Source: Strigops habroptila (lineage: Eukaryota; Chordata; Aves; Psittaciformes; Psittacidae). From it: 64,000 bases of DNA. Made by a program: the position numbers and the translations under genes. The notes beneath the pieces are model-generated. The model did not search any database and had not been told where the DNA came from. It saw only the letters and a list, made by a program, of their open reading frames with translations. The DNA is taken from NCBI RefSeq assembly GCF_004027225.2, contig NC_044301.2, positions 22,849,340 through 22,913,339 on the forward strand. The letters run 5' to 3'. The stretch's first letter is position 1; each line of letters starts with the position of its first letter. This document shows, piece by piece, positions 4,277 through 10,392 of the stretch.

Positions 4277-10392
<6,116 letters not shown>

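Follow-up and report, generated by a model that had tools for sequence, protein, structure and literature searches.

A probable W-linked tyrosine aminotransferase gametolog of the kakapo lacks a conserved arginine that its putative Z-linked partner retains

Results

The kakapo assembly carries two divergent tyrosine aminotransferase copies

We analyzed the tyrosine aminotransferase gene (TAT) within a 64,000-nucleotide stretch of the kakapo (Strigops habroptila) genome, hereafter the window (NCBI RefSeq assembly GCF_004027225.2, contig NC_044301.2, positions 22,849,340 to 22,913,339 of the forward strand). With a probability of about 0.9, we consider this gene to be the W-linked gametolog of a female kakapo, which is decaying after a long period of constraint, while the Z-linked copy is the likely source of the enzyme. 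TAT copies are present both on the contig holding the window (C25) and on a second contig (C26), the C26 copy encodes the Arg417 and Arg433 that are missing from the window, and all of the amino acid changes within exons 6–11 fall on the window side. For reasons given below, C25 is treated as the W chromosome and C26 as the Z. We infer that the W-encoded enzyme has lost all or most of its activity, that W TAT expression is low, and that the Z TAT gene is functional. Because the Z copy still has the normal residues, a functional TAT enzyme has most likely been retained in this bird. Residue and codon numbers refer to the 455-codon window TAT, and coordinates are window positions.

The window gene is TAT by descent

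The gene lies on the + strand and consists of 11 coding exons comprising 455 codons and a TAG stop, with GT-AG borders in 10/10 introns. The encoded protein matched the vertebrate tyrosine aminotransferase equivalog model TIGR01264 with 663.3 bits (cutoff 474.25) as well as PF00155 and the N-terminal TAT domain PF07706 (50.9 bits). Lys280, which we take to be the pyridoxal phosphate-binding residue, is encoded by AAG at 7430–7432. A search of the 455 codons and 10 introns for the marks of a pseudogene (stop, frameshift, broken splice site) found none. Thus, the first-pass annotation, which had been made from the sequence alone, was right to call the gene TAT and to describe its 455 codons, Lys280, and splice sites as whole. 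Its features are as follows, with all exons placed by their splice borders and exons 6–11 also by the Z comparison.

4277..10392, + strand, TAT coding span from ATG to TAG, 11 coding exons, probable neo-W gametolog (455 codons; TIGR01264, PF00155, PF07706)
4277..4511, + strand, coding exon 1
4689..4793, + strand, coding exon 2
5571..5638, + strand, coding exon 3
5946..6104, + strand, coding exon 4
6285..6423, + strand, coding exon 5
6935..6987, + strand, coding exon 6, the first with a readable Z partner
7352..7504, + strand, coding exon 7, with Lys280 and the W-side changes A256T, E261K, N269D, and I272V
8206..8334, + strand, coding exon 8
8763..8846, + strand, coding exon 9, with the W-side changes R367W and A369D
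9401..9499, + strand, coding exon 10
10249..10392, + strand, coding exon 11, with R417C, R433H, G444R, and the stop
10273..10275, + strand, codon 417, TGT (Cys), CGT (Arg) in the Z copy
10321..10323, + strand, codon 433, CAC (His), CGC (Arg) in the Z copy

Both altered arginines are conserved among TATs

Among solved TATs, the two nearest to the window protein (3dyd and 3pdx, presumably the human and mouse enzymes) read NFIRVVITVP and NFFRVVITVP, respectively, around residue 417, and both have Arg433. The mammalian motif given in the first-pass annotation is identical to that of 3dyd, and the Arg is present in both. An Arg is also found opposite Cys417 in all five of the structure alignments shown (22 chains matched), including the more distant 1bw0, 4ix8, and 1xi9. 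We further compared the best 120 of the 2140 homologs passing the cutoff, each row of which represents a 90%-identity cluster. Arg417 is present in 116/120, and the four rows lacking it comprise three with Ser, whose sequences leave the alignment after approximately residue 408, and one bird sequence (P0056) that ends before 417. Arg433 is aligned in 119/120 with one incomplete row, although this match is not meaningful in the three Ser417 rows. Arg occupies the two positions in each of the 15 bird rows compared. Thus, the claims that TGT and CAC encode Cys417 and His433, that the compared intact vertebrate TATs have Arg in their place, and that Arg417 is conserved were all borne out, the last two also by the proposed alignment of bird TATs.

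We assume TAT Arg417 to be the counterpart of aspartate aminotransferase Arg386, which anchors the substrate carboxylate. The role of Arg386 in the Escherichia coli enzyme is described in passages of a review (PMC6411801), and human tyrosinemia type II variants are listed at both sites (p.Arg417Gln, Arg417Ter, p.Arg433Trp, and p.Arg433Gln) in excerpts of PMC9724276. Given this known chemistry and the human variants, Cys417 would be expected to cause a loss of activity, and by analogy the product of the window TAT, if expressed, is probably weak or inactive. Judged by residue 417 of its sequence, the gene does not deserve the name of a functional TAT.

A second copy is colinear with the window gene

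When the genome was searched with the TAT protein, the 15 matches obtained all fell at two loci, one each on C25 and C26. By tblastn, the same protein had no match at E 1e-3 among loci L001–L008, which we take to be other class I/II aminotransferases. Exons 6–11 of the C26 copy are complete and in frame with correct borders, and they retain Lys280, Arg417 (CGT), and Arg433 (CGC). The first-pass annotation had assumed a single copy, which does not hold for this assembly. It had named CGT at this codon in reads or related species as refuting evidence, and the CGT of the C26 copy comes near to this; the window copy itself reads TGT. The homology between the copies extends beyond the exons:

6898..14901, + strand, stretch colinear with the C26 copy in four blocks of 80–89% identity, introns and 3' flank included (window-C26 comparison)

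Identity within this stretch drops from 89% (6898–8144) to 80% in the 3' flank (11315–13720).

C25 and C26 resemble the W and Z chromosomes

The sizes of C25 and C26 are near those of the published kakapo W and Z. HINT genes are markers of the avian Z and W, and HINT-family exons were found on C26 and twice on C25, the latter pair resembling, we presume, the multi-copy HINTW of other birds. A region containing GOT2, which encodes the mitochondrial aspartate aminotransferase and which, like TAT, we take to be a bird chromosome 11 gene, likewise has a copy on C26 and another on C25 (L002 and L003) with 90% identity; the GOT2 exon compared differs at 1 residue of 45. From these sizes, HINT exons, and the GOT2 pair, we infer that C25 is the W and C26 the Z, in which case TAT copies on the two contigs constitute a gametolog pair. 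It should be noted that the two C25 HINT-family exons (982334–982477 and 1000580–1000723) score equally and lie ~18 kb apart.

An ordinary duplicate gene on a non-W chromosome would also yield two copies, and our comparison of C25 with C26 covered TAT, one GOT2 region, and the HINT family. We regard such a duplicate as extremely improbable, given that the copies are colinear into their introns and 3' flank, the presence of GOT2 on the same two contigs, the HINT copies on both, and the contig sizes.

These assignments fit what is known of parrots. According to passages of PMC8854603, chromosome 11 fused to the Z and W in the parrot ancestor, creating a stratum (S4) that is ~31.8 million years old with a Z-W similarity of ~86%. 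In the monk parakeet, 16.9% of S4 genes are retained on the W, the retained copies show lower expression, and 50.1% of this part of the W consists of transposable elements (PMC8854603, same passages). Excerpts of the kakapo paper give ~0X coverage of the W in males, and excerpts of PMC4278454 describe purifying selection on 16 W gametologs.

Amino acid changes in exons 6–11 are confined to the putative W copy

Over residues 237–455 (exons 6–11), the W and Z copies differ by 20 synonymous and 9 nonsynonymous codons, while introns 6–10 differ at 240/2683 ungapped sites (8.95%) with 30 gap events. The first-pass annotation had raised the possibility that the allele or the assembly is atypical to explain Cys417. 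Divergence of this extent fits an old separate lineage, which leaves only a minimal chance of a sequencing error, an assembly chimera, or a rare allele.

Each of the nine amino acid differences lies on the W side, as C26 has the ancestral bird residue at all nine. Under equal constraint and equal mutation, the chance of this is 0.002, and a Fisher test gave 0.001–0.05 when the synonymous split was assumed to lie between 7:13 and 13:7. The pairwise ratio of nonsynonymous to synonymous divergence (dN/dS) was 0.0177/0.154 (NG86), 0.020/0.107 (YN00), or 0.0196/0.112 (maximum likelihood). Assigning all of dN and half of dS to the W suggests a W-branch dN/dS of ~0.2–0.4.

This polarity also bears upon whether TAT might be lost or weakened in the species as a whole, for example through its diet, which we take to consist of low-protein plants. 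Such a loss was our initial working idea, and we abandoned it once the second copy with Arg417 and Arg433 turned up. A precedent exists in Old World fruit bats, in which relaxed Tat evolution accompanies ~10- to 20-fold lower liver activity (excerpts of PMC4019583), and Z exons 1–5 are unread. Nevertheless, none of the nine differences is on the Z side in C26 exons 6–11, and Lys280, Arg417, and Arg433 are all kept, making a species-wide loss very unlikely. The earlier suggestion that the TAT of this bird is impaired is not supported, given the intact exon 6–11 segment with both arginines on the putative Z.

W TAT was probably constrained before it began to decay

Over its whole protein, the window TAT has 15 amino acid changes with no indel or stop; six of the 15 are in residues 1–236 and were polarized against other birds alone, as the Z partner is unreadable there. 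We compared this count with a simple neutral model built from the intron divergence and gap events, with an assumed CpG weight of 8. The model predicts 28–42 W amino acid changes at W shares of 0.33–0.5 versus the 15 seen (P(≤15) 0.003 or less), a contrast that is weaker at a W share of 0.25 (21.5 changes expected, P = 0.08). At a W share of 0.4, ~6 indel events are expected versus none seen, whereas the lack of stops is by itself unremarkable (P 0.09–0.34). Accordingly, under this simple model and W shares of 0.33–0.5, the copy has not evolved like a pseudogene at the neutral rate since the copies split. Because there are just 15 changes and no indel against the neutral expectation, while all nine polarized differences are on the W side, the sequence of W TAT suggests that constraint probably prevailed over much of its history and has since weakened.

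As a variant of this reading, the W copy could have been kept as a female-limited protein of changed role, such as a partner subunit that lowers the activity of the Z-encoded enzyme. Its whole frame and splice sites, as well as its deficits of indels and amino acid changes relative to the neutral model, are all compatible with this. However, the same pattern fits a gene that was normally constrained for a long time and relaxed recently, and the changes are scattered and partly CpG-driven, so we consider a female-limited role very unlikely. We attach the same low credence to its specific form, a retained female-limited pseudoenzyme that would be translated, would be unable to hold the substrate carboxylate, and would lower female tyrosine breakdown through mixed dimers with the Z subunit.

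CpG loss is stronger on the W, where 62/95 Z CpGs read TG or CA, compared with 22/38 in the reverse direction; the corresponding values for exons 6–11 alone are 8/16 and 3/12. Three of the nine changes in residues 237–455 are certain CpG transitions (R367W, R417C, and R433H), while A256T and E261K qualify as such only if the codon before them ended in C, which is true in W but not in Z. Our initial tally, 7/15 possible CpG transitions, had used the window context alone and was replaced by the 3/9 certain ones using the C26 codons. A CpG origin of both Cys417 and His433 had been proposed from the window, and the Z codons CGT and CGC now supply the directions, C-to-T and G-to-A.

The window downstream of the colinear stretch is repeat-rich

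Between 15000 and 64000, matches of at least 150 bases to 50 kb of the Z neighborhood are repeats with several targets. Long frames in this part resemble CR1 and long terminal repeat (LTR) retroelement proteins, as judged by eye.

Discussion

Several points weigh against a decaying W gametolog with a working Z partner. Exons 1–5 of the C26 TAT (L018) lie inside a run of N, so that the putative Z gene is readable over exons 6–11 only. In length, C25 departs from the published W by 1.7 Mb and C26 from the published Z by 0.6 Mb, which we assume to reflect another assembly version. The synonymous W-Z differences are unpolarized. In addition, the window TAT is free of stops and frameshifts, and it might retain some activity. 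Nor do all of its changes have the appearance of decay, because V97M, N269D, and I272V yield residues found in 80, 37, and 10 of the 120 homologs, respectively. Moreover, the window TAT is altered at one otherwise invariant site; 27 other homolog rows have 1 to 6, and by this count it is unexceptional.

Under the favored W-gametolog reading, the TAT-bearing chromosome 11 would have joined the sex chromosomes in the parrot ancestor, after which recombination ceased. Purifying selection would then have maintained W TAT during much of this interval, before constraint was lost and missense changes began to pile up, with the frame and splice sites still whole. CpG transitions among these changes would have removed the substrate-carboxylate Arg417 as well as Arg433. 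The Z TAT would have retained the ancestral residues, supplying enzyme in both sexes, while the W TAT would be a female-only, non-recombining gene encoding a weak or dead enzyme, if expressed.

The cause is ordinary and instructive, a decaying neo-W gametolog of the kind known from parrot S4 genes. Like the chromosome 11-derived S4 gametologs described in passages of PMC8854603, the TAT pair has Z and W copies, repeat-rich W surroundings, and Z-W divergence of a similar order. Unlike the genes in those passages, which do not name TAT, the window copy combines a surviving frame with the loss of a key substrate-binding residue. It shares an excess of amino acid change in an intact frame with Old World fruit bat Tat; in the bats, the gene itself changed, which its authors tied to diet (excerpts of PMC4019583), whereas in the kakapo the change is confined to the W partner, with the Z partner unaltered over exons 6–11. 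Similarly, residues 417 and 433 are altered in both human tyrosinemia type II and the window TAT, but the working gene is affected in patients (passages of PMC9724276), while in the kakapo a second copy keeps both arginines. We found no literature pairing "tyrosine aminotransferase" with "W-linked" in a search whose coverage did not extend to the published W gene list, and TAT was in no title or abstract start among the matches listed for parrot gametologs.

The window TAT looks like an early step of W decay, in which CpG transitions have removed conserved Arg codons from a gene whose frame remains whole. The gene annotation of kakapo TAT may rest on the W copy. More generally, a W-linked copy can pass for the gene itself: with Z exons 1–5 unreadable, annotators or comparative screens could treat the W copy as though it were the TAT of the species and arrive at a false enzyme loss.
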